Positions 2,811-55,291 of a stretch of 64,000 bases of DNA are shown one piece after another. Under the pieces are notes generated by a model that was not told the origin of the DNA, did not search any database, and was given only the letters and a program-made list of their open reading frames with translations. A program made the translations under genes and the position numbers. The DNA comes from Candidatus Methylomirabilota bacterium. GTDB lineage: Bacteria; Methylomirabilota; Methylomirabilia; Rokubacteriales; CSP1-6. The stretch lies in the NCBI GenBank assembly GCA_035709005.1, contig DASTFB010000071.1, positions 124,001 through 188,000 on the forward strand. The letters are read 5' to 3'. Each line of letters begins with the position of its first letter. The stretch's first letter is position 1.

Positions 2811-5597
<2,787 letters not shown>

Positions 5598-18744: not shown

Positions 18745-20222
18745 GCCAGCGCCACGAGAAGCTCGAGAGCTTGCGCAAGCGAGGGATCGACCCCTTCGGG
18801 GAGCGGTTCGTCGTGACGCATCAGGCCCAGCAACTGCACGAGCAGTTCGCCTCGGCCAAGGACGAAGAGCTGAAAGCCGCCGGTTCGGTCAGCGTGGCCG
18901 GACGCGTCATGGCCCTGCGCCACCATGGCAAGACCTGCTTCGCGCATCTTCAAGACTCCAGCGGGCGCATCCAGCTCTACGCGCGGGCCGATCAGCTCGG
19001 CGAGGCCTACTCGCTGTTCACGGATCTCGACCTGGGCGACTTCATCGGCGTCACCGGCGAGCCCTTCCGCACCCGTACGGGCGAGCTCACGGTCGCCGTC
19101 GGACGCCTGCAGTTCCTGACCAAGGCCTTGCGCCCGCTGCCCGAGAAATGGCATGGCCTGCGCGACGTCGAGACACGCTACCGGCGTCGCTACGTCGACC
19201 TCATCGTCAACCGCGACGTCCGCCGGATCTTCGTGCTCCGCTCGCGCATCATCAAGGCGTTGCGCGACTTTTTCGACGCCCGGGGGTTCATCGAGGTCGA
19301 GACGCCGATGATGCAACCCATTCCGGGTGGTGCCATCGCGCGACCGTTCAAGACGCACCACAACGCCCTGGACATGGATCTCTACCTCCGCATCGCTCCC
19401 GAGCTCTACCTCAAGCGGCTCATCGTGGCCGGGTTCGAGCGCGTGTACGAGATCAACCGAAACTTTCGGAACGAGGGTGTCTCCACCCAGCACAACCCCG
19501 AGTTCACGATGCTGGAGTTCTATCAGGCCTATGCCGATTACCAGGATCTGATGCGGCTCACCGAGGAGATGTTCGTGGCTCTCACCCAGGCCGTAGGGGA
19601 AGGACCGACGCTCCGGTGGGGAGAGCACGAGATCGACCTCCGGCCGCCGTGGCGGCGCCTGGGGTTCTTCGCGGGGCTGTCCCAGGCGCTGGGAATGGAC
19701 GTGAGCACCGAGACGGACCCGGCCCGGGTGGCCCAAGCGGCGGCGGCCCGCGGCATCACCGTCGACGCTGCGCCGGCGCCCTGGCGGCTGTGGAAAGAGG
19801 TCTTCGAGACGCTCGTGGAGCCTTCCCTCGTCCAGCCGACCTTCGTCATGGACTTTCCTGTCGAGCTCTCGCCCCTGGCCAAGAAAAAGCGGGACAACTC
19901 CCGCCTGGTGGATCGCTTCGAGCTTTTCATCGGCCAGCGGGAGATGGCCAACGCCTACAGCGAGTTGAACGATCCCATCGACCAGATGTCGCGGTTCCGC
20001 GAGCAGGCCTCGCTCCTGGCCCGCGGCGACGAGGAGGCCCACTGGCTGGACGAGGACTACGTTCGCGCCCTCGAGTACGGCATGCCGCCCACGGCCGGCG
20101 AGGGCATCGGTATCGACCGGCTGGTGATGCTCTTCGCCAACCAGCCCTCCATCCGCGAGGTGGTCCTGTTCCCGCATCTGCGCCCCGAGGCCGGGCGACC
20201 CGCCGATGAGGACGAGGCGTGA
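18741..20222 (+). CDS. lysS: lysyl-tRNA synthetase, class II
   Basis: Charges tRNA-Lys. The 493-residue product has the N-terminal OB-fold anticodon-binding domain (about 45-145) and a class II catalytic domain: motif 1 around FFDARGFIEVETPMM, motif 2 at INRNFRNEG...FTMLEFYQAY and motif 3 at GEGIGIDRLVMLF near the C terminus. The ATG overlaps the prfB stop, an order (prfB-lysS) also seen in E. coli. The stop overlaps the following permease start. Confidence 0.97.
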   Translation: MSQRHEKLESLRKRGIDPFGERFVVTHQAQQLHEQFASAKDEELKAAGSVSVAGRVMALRHHGKTCFAHLQDSSGRIQLYARADQLGEAYSLFTDLDLGDFIGVTGEPFRTRTGELTVAVGRLQFLTKALRPLPEKWHGLRDVETRYRRRYVDLIVNRDVRRIFVLRSRIIKALRDFFDARGFIEVETPMMQPIPGGAIARPFKTHHNALDMDLYLRIAPELYLKRLIVAGFERVYEINRNFRNEGVSTQHNPEFTMLEFYQAYADYQDLMRLTEEMFVALTQAVGEGPTLRWGEHEIDLRPPWRRLGFFAGLSQALGMDVSTETDPARVAQAAAARGITVDAAPAPWRLWKEVFETLVEPSLVQPTFVMDFPVELSPLAKKKRDNSRLVDRFELFIGQREMANAYSELNDPIDQMSRFREQASLLARGDEEAHWLDEDYVRALEYGMPPTAGEGIGIDRLVMLFANQPSIREVVLFPHLRPEAGRPADEDEA

Positions 20223-21454
20223 GCCGCGGCCTGCCCTTCGAGCTGTTCCTCGGCCTGCGTTATCTCCGCTCGGCCGGACAACGCGCCAACCTCTCACTGT
20301 TCGTGTGGATCGGGGTCGGTGGTGTCTTCCTGGGTGTCGCCGCCCTCATCCTGGTGCTGGCCGTGATGACCGGCTTCCAGGACTCGATTCGCGACAAGAT
20401 CATCGAGGCCAATCCCCACCTGCTCATCTTTCAGGCCGGCACTCCGGGCCTGGAGGACGCCGCCGCCGTCGCCGAGCGGGTGCGCACCGTCCCGGGAGTA
20501 CGCGCGGCGACGCCCTTCGTCCTGCAGCAAGCCCTCTTCACCACCAGCGGTGGGAGCGCCCATGGCGGCCTGATCCGCGGCGTGGACCTCACGAATCCCG
20601 TCGCCCTCGCCGACCTGCGCACCCACCTGCGCAGCGGGAGCGTCGAGCCGTTGCAGGCGGGGGAGGGCGCGCTGGTGCTGGGCGGTGAGATGGCCCGGGT
20701 GCTCGGGGTGATCACCGGCGATCCCGTCACCGTGATCTCCCCCAAGGGCGCGCTGACCGCGGTCGGCCTCGTGCCGAAGATGCGGCGCTATACGGTGGCC
20801 GGCATCGTGGAACTGGGGATGCACGAGTACGATGCGACGCTGGCCTTCATGAGCCTGCCCCGGGCCCAGGAGTTTGCCGGCCTGGGCACGGCGGTCAGCG
20901 GGATCGACGTGAAGCTCCACGATCCCTTCGACGCCAAGCGGGTGGGCGCGCTGATCGCCGCCCGGCTCGGGTTGCCCTACTGGATCCGCGACTGGATGGA
21001 CATGAACCGCAACCTGTTCGCGGCCCTGCAGCTGGAGAAGCTCGCCCTGTTCGTCATCGTGACGATCATCGTCCTGGTGGCCGCCTTCGCCATCATCGGC
21101 CACCTCGTGCTGCTGGTCGCCGACAAGCGCAAGGAGATCGGCATCCTCAAGGCCATCGGGGCCTCGGGGTCCATGATCACGGCGGTGTTCCTGGCCGTGG
21201 GGATGAGCATCGGCCTGGTGGGAACGGTGGCCGGGGCCGCGGTGGGACTGGCGCTCATCTGGGTGCAGAACACGTACAAGATCATCCGGTTGGCCGGCGA
21301 CGTGTACCAGATCGACTATCTGCTCATGAAGCTGACCTGGCCGGACTTCCTCCTGGTAGTGGGAGCCACGCTGATCCTCTCGTTCCTGGCCACCATCCTG
21401 CCGGCGCGGCGCGCCGGCGCCCTGGCCCCCGTCGATGTGCTGCGCTACGAGTAG
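20219..21454 (+). CDS. lolC: LolC/LolE-type lipoprotein-releasing permease
   Basis: Membrane subunit of the LolCDE ABC transporter that extracts mature lipoproteins from the inner membrane. The 411-residue product starts with FELFLGLRYLRSAGQRANLS and a first membrane helix (about 25-48), then a large periplasmic MacB_PCD-like domain, then three C-terminal FtsX-type helices (about 275-400) with DKRKEIGILKAIGAS between them. Only one permease lies next to lolD, so it may form a homodimer (LolF-like) or pair with a distant copy. GTG start overlapping lysS. Confidence 0.9.
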   Translation: MSRGLPFELFLGLRYLRSAGQRANLSLFVWIGVGGVFLGVAALILVLAVMTGFQDSIRDKIIEANPHLLIFQAGTPGLEDAAAVAERVRTVPGVRAATPFVLQQALFTTSGGSAHGGLIRGVDLTNPVALADLRTHLRSGSVEPLQAGEGALVLGGEMARVLGVITGDPVTVISPKGALTAVGLVPKMRRYTVAGIVELGMHEYDATLAFMSLPRAQEFAGLGTAVSGIDVKLHDPFDAKRVGALIAARLGLPYWIRDWMDMNRNLFAALQLEKLALFVIVTIIVLVAAFAIIGHLVLLVADKRKEIGILKAIGASGSMITAVFLAVGMSIGLVGTVAGAAVGLALIWVQNTYKIIRLAGDVYQIDYLLMKLTWPDFLLVVGATLILSFLATILPARRAGALAPVDVLRYE

Positions 21455-21497
21455 GCGCGGGCCCCGGGACGCCGCACCACTTCGAGTTCAACAAATC

Positions 21498-21580
21498 CGG
21501 AATACGAACGCAACCACGCCGCACCTGAAGCAGGCCACCCTCGGCCTGAGCCGGCCACGCGGCCCCCGCCACAACAAATC
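21498..21580 (+). repeat. divergent intergenic repeat unit before lolD
   Basis: An 83-base segment bounded by two copies of AACAAATC (21490-21497 and 21573-21580), the second abutting the lolD ATG. Its core aligns with the 81-bp units at 39372-39600: here GGCCACCCTCGGCCTGAGCC, there GCCCACCCCCGGCCCGAGCC. The small hairpin with a CYGA loop is kept. It fills most of the 126-base lolC-lolD gap. Confidence 0.6.
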
Positions 21581-22282
<702 letters not shown>

Positions 22283-37121: not shown

Positions 37122-38228
37122 GTGCGCATCCTGCACCTGATGTCCTGCCGCGGGTGGTCGTCGGACGCCTACTGGGCCGCCCGCATGAGCCGCGAGCTGA
37201 GCCGCCGGGGCCACACCGTCACCCTGGGCTGCCGGGCCGGCACCGAGGCCAGGGTCATCGGGCCGGCCCGGGCTGAAGGCGTCGAGGACATCATCACGCT
37301 CGCCATGCCTGGTGGAGTGCGTCCCGCCGCCGACGCGGCCGATCTCCGGCAGCTCCGCGGCTGGCTGACTCGGGTGGACGTCGTACACGTGCATCGCAGC
37401 AAGGAGCACTGGCTGGCGGCGATGGCCAATCGGCTGAGCGAGGCTCCGCGGCCCATCGTCCGGACCCGGCACATCGTCCAGGCAGTGAGGGCGCACGCCG
37501 TGAACCGCTGGCTGTATCGTCGGGCCACAGCGCTCGTCGTCACCGTGACCGAGGCGATCCGCCGGCAGTATCTGGCCAGCGAGCTGCTCCCGCCGGACCG
37601 GGTGGTCGCCCTGCCGGGCGGCGCCGACGTCGAGCGTTTCCGGCCGCGCTCGGCCGATCCCGCCGTGCGTCGCCGCCTCGGCGCCGCCGACGGCGAGCTG
37701 CTGGTGGGGATGATCGGGGGCTTGCGAGGGATGAAGGGGCATCGCGTCGTCATAGAGGCGGCCGGACGGCTCGCCGGCGAGGGCCTGCACTTCGCGTTCG
37801 TGGGGCGGGGGAGCGCGGAGCCCGCGATCCGGGAGATGGTCCGGCGTTCGGGGCTCGCGCATCGCTTCACCTTCGCCGGCTTCGCCGACGACCTTGCTGG
37901 CGTGTTGGCCGCCGTCGACGTGGCCCTGTACGTGCCGGTGGAGTCGGAGGGGATGTCGCGCGTCGTATGGGAGTATCTCGCGGCCGGCCGCCCGCTCGTC
38001 GCCTCGCGGGTCGGCGTGGTCAGCGAAGCGCTCACCGATGGCGAGGACGCGATACTCATCCACGCCGGGGACGCCGATGCGCTGGCCAGCGCGCTCCGCC
38101 GCCTGAGCCATGACCCGGCGCTTCGGGCGCGAGTGGCCGAGGCCGGGCGCCGGCTGGTGGTCAGCCGCTACTCGGGGGCCTGCGTCGCCGCCGCGCTGGA
38201 GGAGCGGTACCGGCAGCTCGCATCGTGA
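37122..38228 (+). CDS. GT4-family glycosyltransferase, likely paralogue of the preceding gene
   Basis: A 368-residue GT-B protein with RILHLMSCRGWSSDAYWAA at the start, VHVHRSKEHWLAA near 89-101, PGGADVERFRP, MIGGLRGMKGH and a full EX7E motif Glu276...Glu284 (EGMSRVVWE). The N-terminal segments parallel those of the upstream gene. It probably acts on the LPS core or another envelope glycan, on the strength of context only. GTG start four bases after the preceding stop. Confidence 0.85.
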   Translation: MRILHLMSCRGWSSDAYWAARMSRELSRRGHTVTLGCRAGTEARVIGPARAEGVEDIITLAMPGGVRPAADAADLRQLRGWLTRVDVVHVHRSKEHWLAAMANRLSEAPRPIVRTRHIVQAVRAHAVNRWLYRRATALVVTVTEAIRRQYLASELLPPDRVVALPGGADVERFRPRSADPAVRRRLGAADGELLVGMIGGLRGMKGHRVVIEAAGRLAGEGLHFAFVGRGSAEPAIREMVRRSGLAHRFTFAGFADDLAGVLAAVDVALYVPVESEGMSRVVWEYLAAGRPLVASRVGVVSEALTDGEDAILIHAGDADALASALRRLSHDPALRARVAEAGRRLVVSRYSGACVAAALEERYRQLAS

Positions 38229-39373
38229 AGATCACGGTCCTTACGTTCGACCTCTCGGATAACGCCACCGGCCGGGCCGACCTGTTGGCCCGCCTGCTGG
38301 CGTCGCGCTATCAGGTCACGGTGGTCGGGCCACAGTTCGGACCACGGGTGTGGAGCCCGGTGACGGGCGGCGCGATCGACTACGTGGCGGTGCCCGCGCG
38401 TCGGTATCCTGGCTTCCTCGCCGACGTCGGCGCCCTTTGCGATCGGATCGACGGCGATGTCCTCTACGCCTCCAAGCCGCGGCCCACCAGCTACGGCGTG
38501 GCATTGCTGGCCCGACGACGGCGGCGGCGGCCGTTGCTGCTGGACATCGACGACTGGGAGCTCGGCTTCTACTACCGTTCGGGCGTCTGGGGTCGGCTCG
38601 GCCGCGCGCTCAACCTGGCCAACCCCAATGGCCTGGCCTGGACCTGGCTCTGCGAGCGGCTCATCCCGGCCGCCGACGCGGTCACCGTCGCCTCCCGGTT
38701 CCTGGAGCGGCGCTTCGGGGGGATCCTGCTTCCCCACGTGCGTGACACCGATGCCTGGACTCCCGAGCGCTACGATGCCGCTACCGTCCGTGCGGCCCTG
38801 GGCATCGGGCGATCGCCGCTGGTCATGTTCCTGGGCACGCCGCGCGGCTACAAGGGGGTGGACGATCTGGTGGAGGCCGTGGCGCGCCTGGGCGGCGACG
38901 CCGCGCTGGCGATCGTCGGCGCCAGGCCGGACAGCGAAGCGGCGCGCCGGTGGGCGGCCCGGCCGTTCGTGAAGGTCGTCGGCGAAATCCCCTTCGACGA
39001 CGTCCCACGTTACCTGGCGGCGGCCACTGTCGTGGCCGTGCCGCAGCGCGCGACCTCCGACACCGTGGGACAGGTTCCGGCGAAGCTCTTCGACGCGATG
39101 GCGCTGGGACGTCCCATCGTCGCCACGGCCGTGTCGATGATCCCGGAGATCCTGGACGGCTGCGGCCTGGTCGTCCCGCCGGGCGATATCGGCCAGCTGG
39201 CCGACGCCATCCGCCGTCTCGTCGGCGACCCGGACACCGCGGCCGCGCTCGGCCGGCGAGCGCGGGCCCGGTGTGTCGCCGAATACAGCTTCAGGGCCGC
39301 GCGCGCCCGCCTCTTCCCGCTGATCGATCGGCTCGCCAGCGGCCGTGTGCTGGACAGGGCCGCTCGTGCGTAG
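38225..39373 (+). CDS. GT4-like glycosyltransferase
   Basis: A 382-residue GT-B protein with MKITVLTFDLSDNATGRADL, a YASKPRPTSYGVALLA segment and LLLDIDDWELGFYYRSG, typical of a branch of GT4 that lacks the classical EX7E; the corresponding region reads QVPAKLFDAMALGRPIVAT. An Arg run (90s) precedes the DIDDWE segment. The last codons overlap the first repeat unit downstream. GTG overlaps the preceding stop. Donor and acceptor unknown. Confidence 0.82.
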   Translation: MKITVLTFDLSDNATGRADLLARLLASRYQVTVVGPQFGPRVWSPVTGGAIDYVAVPARRYPGFLADVGALCDRIDGDVLYASKPRPTSYGVALLARRRRRRPLLLDIDDWELGFYYRSGVWGRLGRALNLANPNGLAWTWLCERLIPAADAVTVASRFLERRFGGILLPHVRDTDAWTPERYDAATVRAALGIGRSPLVMFLGTPRGYKGVDDLVEAVARLGGDAALAIVGARPDSEAARRWAARPFVKVVGEIPFDDVPRYLAAATVVAVPQRATSDTVGQVPAKLFDAMALGRPIVATAVSMIPEILDGCGLVVPPGDIGQLADAIRRLVGDPDTAAALGRRARARCVAEYSFRAARARLFPLIDRLASGRVLDRAARA

Positions 39374-39600
39374 ACGCCGCCGCCACCTCGCGCTCGGGTC
39401 AGCCCACCCCCGGCCCGAGCCGGGCACACCGTCGACCACAGCCAATCGGGGAAGCGCACGCCGCCACCTCGTGCCGAGAGCAGCCCACCTGCAGTGCGAG
39501 CCGAGCTCGCGGTCGACTACATCAAATCGGGGAGGCGCACGCCGCCACGTCGTGCCGAGGCCAGCCCACCCCCGGCCCGAGCCGGGCACACGGCTTTCGG
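39372..39600 (+). repeat. tandem array of three 81-bp intergenic repeat units
   Basis: Units at 39372-39452, 39453-39533 and a shortened third at 39534-39600. The period is exactly 81 bases. Shared blocks include CGCCGCCACCTCG, CAGCCCACC, CCCCGGCCCGAGCCGGGCAC (units 1 and 3) and AATCGGGGA at the unit end. Units 1 and 3 carry a 6-bp hairpin CCCGGC-CCGA-GCCGGG (39409-39424 in unit 1); unit 2 has CGAGC-CGA-GCTCG instead. Unit 1 begins inside the stop codon of the upstream gene, and the array ends at the next start codon. Confidence 0.9.
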
Positions 39601-39604
39601 TACA

Positions 39605-40720
39605 ATGAAGCTCCTGATCGTCGCGCGTCCGTTCGTGTTCCACGGCGGCGTGGAGCGGGCGACGGCCGGTCTGATCCGGGCGCTGGTCGAGCACGGCTAC
39701 GAGGTTCACCTGGCCAGCCCTCCGGGGCAGAAACCGGTCGACGGCGTCGTCCTGCACCGCCTGCCGGTGCCGCCCCTGACCGCGACCGCCCGGGCGTTGA
39801 CGCTGGCCCTGGCAACGCGCCTCATCGCGGCGCGAGGTTGGGACGTCGTGCAGAGTCACGAGCGGACGCTCGGTCAGGACATCTACCGCGCCGGTGAAGG
39901 CTGCCATCGCGGCTATCTCTTGACGCGAGGCCGAGCGCCGGGGCGGCGACTCTATCATCGGGTGGTCCTCGCGCTGGAAGGCCGCGTCTTCGCGCGGACG
40001 CCACGCATCGTGGCGATCTCCTGTGCCGGCAAGCGCGAGATCGAAACCCTGTATGGCGTGAGCCCGGACCGGGTCACCGTCATCTACAACGGCGTCGATC
40101 TCGAGCGTTTTCACCCGAACAATCGCCGCACCCTGCGCGCGGCCGCACGCCGGGAAGCCGCTCTCGACGCGGAGGCCTGGACGGCGCTCTTCGTCGGCAG
40201 CGGCTTCGAACGCAAGGGGCTGGCGACCGCGATCGAGGCGCTGGCGCTCCTGGACGATCGGCAGAGCCGCCTCATCGTCGTCGGCAAGGGCGATACCCGC
40301 CCTTACGAAGCGCTGGCCAGTCGTCACGATGTCACCGGGCAGGTGATCTGGCTCGGCCCCCGCGCCGACATCGAGCGGTGGTACGCGGCCGCCGACGTCG
40401 CGGTCCTGCCCAGCCGGTACGAGCCCTTCGGCAACGTGCACCTGGAGGCGCTGGCCTCCGGCCTGCCCGTCGTGGCCAGCGTGACGGCCGGCGGCAGCGA
40501 GCTGATTCGCCCCGGTCTCAACGGGGCCGTCGTCGATGCGCGGGATCCTGGCGCCATCGCCGCCGCGCTGGCCGAGTTGCGCCAGCGCGCCATCGCCGGC
40601 GGCGCAGAGACCTGCGCGGCCGCCCGGGCATCCGCCGAGCCCTACACCTACGTCGCGCAGGTCGCGGCGTTCGGACGGCTGTACGCCGAATGCGCGGCCG
40701 GAAAGGCCAAATTGTATTGA
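39605..40720 (+). CDS. WaaG-like GT4 glycosyltransferase
   Basis: A 371-residue GT-B protein beginning MKLLIVARPFVFHGGVERAT. Its SHERTLGQDIYRAGEGCHRGYL segment (84-105) and VGSGFERKGL resemble WaaG, which adds the first glucose to the heptose core. The EX7E motif is complete (Glu273...Glu281, EPFGNVHLE). An upstream in-frame GTG would add 37 residues encoded by the repeat array, so I chose this ATG. Its stop overlaps the -35 box of the next gene's putative promoter. Confidence 0.86.
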   Translation: MKLLIVARPFVFHGGVERATAGLIRALVEHGYEVHLASPPGQKPVDGVVLHRLPVPPLTATARALTLALATRLIAARGWDVVQSHERTLGQDIYRAGEGCHRGYLLTRGRAPGRRLYHRVVLALEGRVFARTPRIVAISCAGKREIETLYGVSPDRVTVIYNGVDLERFHPNNRRTLRAAARREAALDAEAWTALFVGSGFERKGLATAIEALALLDDRQSRLIVVGKGDTRPYEALASRHDVTGQVIWLGPRADIERWYAAADVAVLPSRYEPFGNVHLEALASGLPVVASVTAGGSELIRPGLNGAVVDARDPGAIAAALAELRQRAIAGGAETCAAARASAEPYTYVAQVAAFGRLYAECAAGKAKLY

Positions 40721-53583: not shown

Positions 53584-55291
53584 ACCGCGCCGAAACCTCG
53601 GCGGCCAGCGAAAGGAGGAGAAATCCAGCGCCCCCGAGGAGCACATGGAGGACTGGTACCGGACGACCGCCATCACCGAGTTCGAGGAAGGCGAGGTGGT
53701 TCGGGGCCGGGTCGTCCACGTCGGGCCCTCCGAGGTCCTGGTCGATGTCGGCTACAAGAGCGAGGGGGCCATCCCCATCGAGGAATTCCACCGGGCCGGG
53801 AAGCTGCCCGAGGTGGGAGAAGAGCTCGACGTCTACCTGGAGGCCAAGGAGGACGCCGAAGGGCTGATTGTCCTCTCCAAGGACAAAGCCGACAAAATCA
53901 AGGTCTGGGACGTCATCACCCAGGCGTTCGACAAGGGCAGTCCCGTCGAAGGGAAGGTCGTCGAGGTCGTCAAGGGCGGGCTGGCGGTGGACGTCGGCGT
54001 CAAGGCGTTCTTGCCCGGCTCCCAGGTGGACCTGCGGCCCGTCAAGAACCTGAACGCGCTGCTCGGCCACACGATCCGGGCCAAGGTCATCAAGCTCAAC
54101 CGACGCCGCGGAAACGTGGTGCTCTCACGGCGGGCCGTGCTGGAAGAAGAGCGGGAGGAAAAGAAGAAGCACACCCTCGAAGTCCTCCACGAGGGCATGG
54201 TCCTCACCGGCACGGTGAAGAACATCACCGACTACGGCGCCTTCATCGACCTGGGGGGCATCGACGGCCTGCTGCACGTCACCGACATGAGCTGGGGGCG
54301 GGTCGGGCACCCGTCGGAGATCTTCCAGGTGGGCGATCAGGTCGAGGTAGTCGTGCTGCATTTCGACCGCGAGACCGGCCGGGTGTCCCTCGGCTACAAG
54401 CAGAAGTCCGTGGACCCCTGGGAGCAGGTGGAGCAGAAGTACGCGGCCGGCACGAAGGCCAGCGGCAAAGTGGTGAGCCTCACCAACTACGGCGCCTTCG
54501 TGGAGCTGGAGCCGGGGGTGGAAGGCCTGGTCCACGTGTCCGAGATGTCGTGGACCCGTCGCGTGCGCCACCCCTCGAAGATCGTCAACGTCGGCGACGA
54601 GGTCGAGGTGGCGGTGCTCGACGTCAATCGGGCGGCCAAGCGGATCTCCCTGGGCATGAAGCAGGTCGAGCCCGATCCCTGGGAGACCATCGACGAGCGC
54701 TACCAGGTGGGCCAGCGGGTCACCGGCCGCGTGCGCAACCTCACTGATTTCGGCGCCTTCATCGAGCTGGAGCCGGGCGTCGACGGCCTGCTCCACATCT
54801 CCGACATGTCGTGGACCCGCTCGGTGGGCCATCCCTCCGAAGTCATCAAGAAGGGCCAGGATCTGGAGACGCAGATCCTCAACATCGACAGCGAGAACAA
54901 GCGCATCTCGCTGGGACTCAAGCAGGTCCAGCCCGATCCCTGGGCCACCGTCGCCCAGCGCTATCCCATGGGCTCGCGGATCACGGGTAAGGTCGTCCGG
55001 CTCACCGATTTCGGCGCCTTCGTCGAGCTGGAGCCGGGCGTCGACGGCCTGCTGCACATCTCCCAGATGGCCAATCGTCCGATCAGTCGTCCCGACGAGA
55101 TCGTCAACGTGGGCGACGAGCTCACCCTGCTCGTGATCCGAGTCGATTCGAACGAGCGGCGTATCGGGCTCAGCCTGAAGGAGCTGGCCCACGCGGTGGA
55201 CCTCGGCCGCGAGACGGAGGACGTGCGGGGTCAGGGGCGACGCGGCAAGCGCAAGCAGCGCGACGACTACGACGACGACACCGAGGAGTAG
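53570..55291 (+). CDS. rpsA: 30S ribosomal protein S1
   Basis: Binds mRNA on the 30S subunit. From ATG 53570 the product is 573 residues, with an acidic/charged N-terminal 35 residues, then six S1 domains starting near EGEVVRGRV, KGSPVEGKV, EGMVLTGTV, AGTKASGKV, VGQRVTGRV and MGSRITGKV. Domains 3-6 carry the classic YGAFI/V...GLLH pattern. The tail is basic then acidic (GKRKQRDDYDDDTEE). GGGAGGA nine bases before the ATG supports this start; GTG 53516 would extend it 18 residues. Confidence 0.96.
   Translation: MEKDEPRRNLGGQRKEEKSSAPEEHMEDWYRTTAITEFEEGEVVRGRVVHVGPSEVLVDVGYKSEGAIPIEEFHRAGKLPEVGEELDVYLEAKEDAEGLIVLSKDKADKIKVWDVITQAFDKGSPVEGKVVEVVKGGLAVDVGVKAFLPGSQVDLRPVKNLNALLGHTIRAKVIKLNRRRGNVVLSRRAVLEEEREEKKKHTLEVLHEGMVLTGTVKNITDYGAFIDLGGIDGLLHVTDMSWGRVGHPSEIFQVGDQVEVVVLHFDRETGRVSLGYKQKSVDPWEQVEQKYAAGTKASGKVVSLTNYGAFVELEPGVEGLVHVSEMSWTRRVRHPSKIVNVGDEVEVAVLDVNRAAKRISLGMKQVEPDPWETIDERYQVGQRVTGRVRNLTDFGAFIELEPGVDGLLHISDMSWTRSVGHPSEVIKKGQDLETQILNIDSENKRISLGLKQVQPDPWATVAQRYPMGSRITGKVVRLTDFGAFVELEPGVDGLLHISQMANRPISRPDEIVNVGDELTLLVIRVDSNERRIGLSLKELAHAVDLGRETEDVRGQGRRGKRKQRDDYDDDTEE

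Follow-up and report, generated by a model that had tools for sequence, protein, structure and literature searches.

A short, probably mobile repeat at stop/start junctions of co-directional genes in one family of Rokubacteria

The spacer between two lol genes in a 64,000-nucleotide stretch of a Rokubacteria genome (hereafter the window) contains one copy of a dispersed sequence that is very probably a short mobile repeat, devoid of mobility genes of its own, which multiplies within a single family of Rokubacteria at the junctions of co-directional genes. Its copies are scattered over many genomes of this family, sites filled in one species are empty in relatives, and insertions strongly favor junctions between co-directional genes, above all those where the upstream gene ends in ATGA. 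A preliminary description of the window had recognized the repeat, having overlooked that the element is mobile, that its typical target is the stop/start junction and that it also resides in frame inside genes. In the open-access papers searched, judged by titles and abstract openings (subscription papers fall outside this scope), no description of the element was found.

Two Related Loci in the Window

The gap at positions 21455-21580 of the window separates a lolC/E-type permease gene (20219-21454, plus strand, stop codon TAG; NCBIfam TIGR02212, E 2.3e-102, with 343 bits under the curated cut-off of 362) from a lolD-type ATPase gene (21581-22282, plus strand; TIGR02211, E 2.6e-77, with 259 bits under the curated cut-off of 308). 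Aligned with a tandem array at 39.4 kb, the gap yields a score of 57 over 83 columns, which none of 2000 dinucleotide shuffles reached (mean 19.7, SD 3.0, maximum 39); when the array was scanned against the remaining window, the top unrelated stretch scored 37. The original proposal that a divergent relative of the 81-bp array lies directly before lolD is thus borne out for the whole array, as well as for array unit 3 (39540-39604, plus strand; score 46) and unit 1 (39378-39458, plus strand; score 36), each with 0 of 2000 shuffles as high, and not for unit 2 alone (39459-39539, plus strand; score 22), where 103 of 2000 shuffles score as high and the match is not significant. The array itself was found independently, being recovered both by a repeat finder, as three 81-base copies in register at 39378-39620 of which the third extends beyond the gene start, and by TRF (39378-39591, period 81, 2.6 copies); all three units also match the family model R1 described below. 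It is flanked by two glycosyltransferase-like genes with matches under the curated cut-offs, one upstream (38225-39373, plus strand, stop codon TAG) and one downstream (39605-40720, plus strand). Both loci end right before a start codon, as had been noted: the GTACA end of unit 3 abuts the ATG at 39605, and the lolD ATG is located at 21581.

In the lolC-lolD copy, the conserved core occupies positions 21504-21574 on the plus strand (alignment A1 and model R1, the R1 match G000:C71:145505-145574 corresponding to window positions 21505-21574) and ends in CCACAA, the usual right end of the family being CTACAA. It is preceded by a left extension, TTCGAGTTCAACAAATCCGGAAT (21481-21503, plus strand), that resembles the left ends of copies at three other loci (L002, L010, L015). 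Direct reading shows AACAAATC twice on the plus strand, at 21490-21497 and at 21573-21580, the second copy abutting the lolD ATG. This octamer had been taken for the boundary of the unit; it is not the boundary of the family because the homology runs left to approximately 21481 (TTCGAG...AATC.GG), a left end common to other copies, and the right end is of the CTACAA type. The hairpin with a CTGA loop exists in the lolC-lolD copy and fails as a common feature of the family: its inner pair is broken in 15 of 35 copies and the next pair in 9 of 35, with no covariation above that in shuffles. Elsewhere in the window, a 261-base tandem repeat (54478-55063, 2.2 copies) lies inside a long open frame and probably represents repeated protein domains.

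Consensus, Copy Number and Range of the Family

A blastn search of the window's genome (4.59 Mb) with the lolC-lolD stretch located 21 sites at E<1e-4, the query itself counted, and the sequence-only model R1, built from 35 copies, gave 45 matches there at E<1e-4. The core, approximately 65-71 nt in length, has the approximate consensus ACGCAGCCACGC(C)GCACCTAGAGCAGsCCACCCwCGGcCCGAgCCGGGCTCGCGGCCCCCGCTACAA; a left extension is frequent and varies between genera, and copies occur singly or in head-to-tail arrays. With one cut-off applied throughout, an nhmmer control produced 0 matches on the reversed loci (1.43 Mb), and the real loci gave 435 rows, a figure that counts overlapping loci.

The element was found in 40 of the 57 genomes of the Rokubacteria family to which the window belongs, with counts among the genomes that carry it ranging from at least 1 to at least 92 matches when 88 candidates were scored in each; with 126 candidates scored per genome, G004, G003 and G021 contain at least 115, 119 and 126 matches, respectively. 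Copy number also varies inside genera (at least 11, 31 and 77 in g18; at least 2, 34, 39 and 12 in g14). At E<=0.001 no match was found in the 38 other genomes of the phylum, with 53 candidates scored per genome, and a search of 40 genomes at E<=0.01 returned one weak match (E 0.003-0.007) in each of three genomes, of which two lie outside the family. Plasmids and phages gave no match to the element. A viral home was considered and rejected: the one IMG/VR contig with a 19-base pattern is a chance occurrence, located (by eye) inside a phage head-type gene.

Placement Relative to Genes

Placement was determined for 250 arrays (146 from the discovery set and 104 new; 63 multi-copy), after removal of arrays located no more than 60 bases from the end of a locus and of duplicates (by a 38-base key, so that a few may remain); genes were called with a simple coding-score caller, errors included. 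Between co-directional genes, 178 of the 250 arrays lie in gene orientation and 15 in the opposite one (p ~1e-36). For the remaining arrays, the neighboring genes are divergent in 11 cases and convergent in 4; 37 arrays fall within predicted genes, some of them perhaps gene-calling errors, and 5 lie at an edge, which left them unplaced. Altogether, 30 of 250 run against gene direction or lie between divergent or convergent genes. The stop of the upstream gene is ATGA in 89 of 182 cases near the element, compared with 141 of 993 elsewhere in the same loci (p 4e-23). Of the 102 arrays in a 132-array set that precede a same-direction gene, 46 have a start codon that begins on the final core base, and 74 of the 84 starts located within 25 bases of the core are ATG. 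The idea of a dispersed family tied to gene starts, which had been put forward from the two window loci, is supported by these placements.

Filled and Empty Sites

The lolC-lolD junction was compared in loci from 30 of the 56 genomes with a lolC match, 28 of the 30 junctions being readable. At 20 of these, just 22-46 nt separate the lolC stop from a conserved LolD motif, which leaves no room for a spacer; three junctions measure 61, 66 and 125 nt and lack the element, and five, of 148-276 nt, contain it (the window's genome G000, G041, G040 and G061 at E<=2.1e-4, and G003 with an interrupted copy, E 0.07). Within the genus g4, G042 displays GTGA at this junction, and G041, G040 and G003 display RTGA, element sequence and ATGA. 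Syntenic alignment in the same genus further reveals clean 66-bp presence/absence differences inside hemW and ahead of a Shine-Dalgarno sequence, with an apparent deletion remnant of the element at the latter site in G040. Ten element sites of G045 were located in its congener G017: one holds a diverged copy and nine have no detectable copy, two of which (L268, L270) hold other sequence and are not clean empty sites; six empty G017 junctions are, by eye, RTGA stop/start overlaps. At the G045 sites, G044 retains the copy at L260 and L262 and, by eye, a remnant at L272. At the gatA-gatB junction (read in loci from 30 genomes, out of 51 in which gatB was matched), six loci are filled, those of all four g4 genomes, G004 and G047; the junction is without the element in G046, a congener of G004, and in the seven other fetched genomes of g9, the genus of G047.

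At many filled sites, RTGA-like sequence flanks the element on both sides, and it occurs once in empty sites; the flanks vary, as do the left ends of the element, and flank likeness beyond RTGA is irregular, so that an exact target duplication is a candidate feature only. Judged from these sequence comparisons, the element is a mobile repeat whose mobility is evident from the empty sites in related species.

Other inserts were encountered as well. In another Rokubacteria lineage, the lolC-lolD junctions of L165 and L190 contain a different palindromic repeat, in L190 as two tandem copies with a GACGAATGA-like end, so several element families may be attracted to stop/start overlaps. The gatA-gatB junction of the window's genome (L329) holds a different GC-rich, hairpin-like insert that is read, by eye, into gatB. 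G041 lacks a long, GC-rich, inverted-repeat-like intergenic stretch (L199, L235, L236, L237; alignment columns 5506-5578 and 2398-2434) that G003, G040 and G042 possess, and part of this sequence turns up again elsewhere in the region.

Copies Inside Genes and Recurrence at Shared Junctions

The hemW insertion (the gene being identified by TIGR00539 above its cut-off) is antisense and in frame, and lengthens the protein of G003 and of G041 by 22 residues. In genes for livF/urtE-type ATPases of G005 and G015, which belong to two genera, one and the same loop holds an in-frame insertion of the element (RSHAAPRAGHPR...SLQ and RSHAASRPGHPR...PLQ, respectively), other available homologs having shorter loops. 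GatB of G047 starts with MTEPGRISRRPLPDRAGLTDPAPTTYDVVIG, an in-frame N-terminal extension absent in the seven other fetched g9 genomes.

Eleven junctions with similar genes on both sides are filled in two different genera; two further pairs, both involving L203, were excluded as probable transporter paralogs (identity only 46-60%). By a rough estimate, uniform insertion would yield about one such orthologous junction among approximately 5300 cross-genus pairs, against the eleven observed; the excess would have to come from insertion hot spots, ancient inheritance or some function under selection. At most of these junctions, the similarity of the two elements does not exceed that of randomly drawn pairs; the elements at gatB in g4 and g5 (identity 0.90) reach the 99.5th percentile of random pairs, and those at two other junctions the 95th and 90th. 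With only one pair clearly more alike than random, most copies at shared junctions look like separate insertions; vertical inheritance was discarded as the general explanation, the gatB pair alone standing out, and the sequence similarities favor repeated insertion at preferred junctions over inheritance. In G000 (L005) and G021 (L208), an element copy is directed toward the 3' end of a tRNA gene that appears by eye to be the same in both genomes; the neighboring genes match, and the two elements are 0.80 identical (90th percentile of random pairs).

A Possible Mechanism and Its Alternatives

The RTGA-like motif often present on both sides would allow the upstream gene to retain its stop and the downstream gene its start. 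Mobilization would be provided in trans by a recombinase or transposase that recognizes the conserved ends and an asymmetric target, and such recognition would account for the fixed orientation. Tandem copies might arise through a target recreated by the element's own end or by slippage, and selection would remove insertions that break genes, leaving junctions and in-frame sites. Terminal inverted repeats were not found among 164 copies: the mean best match is 11.73 of 24, compared with 11.56 for shuffled left ends, a difference of 0.2 match that, with an SD of 0.09 among the shuffled means, amounts to roughly two SD and is far too small for inverted repeats. The Y1 transposase domain (Y1_Tnp, PF01797) was found in 0 of the 29 genomes with at least 11 element matches, some of these assemblies being incomplete, and in 11 of the 28 with 0-9 matches. 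The IS110 transposase (PF01548) was found in 38 of 57 genomes and not found in 8 of the 29 with at least 11 matches (G005, G045, G047, G048, G051, G059, G067, G068), again with some assemblies incomplete. Derivation from IS110 and mobilization by Y1 were both rejected, as neither transposase shows an association with element numbers.

A reading that would add to mobility rather than oppose it holds that the element is a mini-gene translated between coupled genes: ribosomes would terminate at RTGA, reinitiate at the RTG that overlaps it, read some 22 codons (e.g., MKPRAPRAGHPRCEPGSRTPLQ) and terminate again at CTA CAA TGA, where TGA overlaps the downstream ATG, such that coupling survives the insertion. 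We regard this relay as doubtful overall. Equally tentative is the corresponding mini-cistron scheme, whereby the element enters and duplicates an ATGA overlap, its 65-nt form supplying a right-phase frame that ends in a new ATGA overlap and lengths that are multiples of three supplying an N-terminal extension; relay is most plausible for the 65-nt form, in which the element's own length sets the phase. Phase scoring was confined to single arrays that have a downstream start near the core end and whose nearby stop, at most 60 bases away, is ATGA or GTGA. In the first set, the distance from the old overlapping start to the downstream start was 2 mod 3 in 26 of 27 cases (27 of 28 on rerun), a spacing at which the element's frame closes with its TGA forming a new -4 overlap. 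The phase prediction was fixed beforehand for starts within 12 nt, and 100 further loci were then fetched as a new set; in this form it failed for the new arrays other than the 65-nt type (phase 2 in 3 of 9, p 0.62; 17 of 18 in the discovery set), and the new 65-nt arrays, with their length-determined phase, gave 7 of 8. Under a looser cut (called start within 40 nt), phase 2 accounts for 27 of the 34 arrays in the discovery set (the other 7 being in frame and none in the third phase) and 15 of 22 new ones (4 in frame, 3 in the third phase), falling to 8 of 14 (p 0.058) for new arrays not of the 65-nt type. Pooled, the figure is 42 of 56 against 19 of 58 element-free spacers (p 6e-6), and 26 of 39 against the same 19 of 58 once the fixed 65-nt type is set aside (p 0.0017), although the phases of these control spacers are unevenly distributed as well (30, 19 and 9 for phases 0, 2 and 1). 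An exact -4 overlap reached by a fully open path occurs in 30 of 56 arrays compared with 13 of 58 spacers (p 0.0009), but exclusion of the 65-nt type reduces this to 15 of 39 against 13 of 58 (p 0.11). The reading also gains from the in-frame N-terminal fusion of gatB in G047 and from the Shine-Dalgarno-like 4-mers, none of which precedes any of 58 core-end starts, compared with 15 of 56 window genes. Against it, stop-free frames of the core number 85, 85 and 76 among 103 single copies (83, 83 and 74%, compared with 75-77% in shuffles), a share not clearly above the shuffles, on which ground selection for an open frame in the core was rejected; moreover, both window loci misfit, with upstream genes ending in TAG and distances of 1 mod 3. 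The exact -4 relay frame in 13 of the 58 element-free spacers (15-140 nt, RTGA stop) suggests that small genes have been overlooked in Rokubacteria or that translated inserts of other kinds are present.

The orientation of the element and its position ahead of start codons, along with its recurrence at the same junctions in different genera, could also be accounted for by a mobile promoter, that is, a cis-regulatory module that would set the expression of the downstream gene, and the right end TACAAT resembles the -10 box consensus. Given that at least some copies lie in frame within coding sequence, that no canonical -35 hexamer is seen by eye at the right distance and that an asymmetric RTGA target would confer orientation too, such a role appears unlikely. 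Short length, mainly intergenic location, tens to over a hundred copies per genome and tandem clusters would equally befit REP or REPIN sequences moved by a RAYT (Y1) transposase; but there is no conserved palindrome and Y1_Tnp was not found in any of the 29 genomes with at least 11 matches, which makes this origin highly improbable and, as far as these two properties go, refuted. Least probable of all is a structured RNA leader or riboswitch family: the position just ahead of starts and the conserved core would suit it, but RNAalifold predicts two pairs with no compensatory change, two named hairpins show no covariation above shuffles, the window and four loci have no Rfam match at gathering scores (weak sub-threshold matches being found in five loci), and coding genes receive insertions as well. 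Lacking covarying pairs and an Rfam family at gathering scores, this reading is largely contradicted.

Relationship to Known Repeats

Very small mobile repeats, to which the element seems akin as a tiny mobile repeat, were reportedly described in cyanobacteria by Elhai et al. in 2008. Like the MITEs and other miniature non-autonomous elements covered in a review (PMC10969869), the element is short, multicopy, mainly intergenic and without its own transposase, and genic copies in frame are possible; unlike the MITEs outlined there, it has no terminal inverted repeats, is GC-rich, strongly favors ATGA-stop junctions in one orientation and yielded no parent transposon in searches for Y1 and IS110 transposases. 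It shares in-frame insertion into protein-coding genes with the Rickettsia palindromic elements as summarized in the same source (PMC10969869), but is not palindromic, measures approximately 66 bp rather than approximately 150 bp and resides mainly at gene junctions. REPINs with their RAYT transposases (PMC3116915, PMC8049555) are likewise small dispersed repeats in clusters; the element differs in having no palindrome and in that Y1 was not found in high-copy genomes. The putative mobile promoters mentioned in PMC8049555 resemble it in being repeats right upstream of many genes, whereas for the element a promoter role is only a candidate, copies occur in genes and the target would explain the orientation. 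Its sequence features place the element among the miniature mobile repeats, as a distinct form that appears to behave as a non-autonomous one.

Implications

Tightly packed operons offer little room for parasitic DNA. A repeat that lands on the stop/start junction in one orientation shows that parasitic DNA can spread without breaking genes, insertion usually leaving both flanking genes readable. The element can mislead the annotation of Rokubacteria through added spacers, N-termini and small frames. It also provides a natural means of testing to what extent translational coupling requires an exact overlap and, if the mini-cistron reading is true, ribosomes would pass from gene to gene through the parasite.
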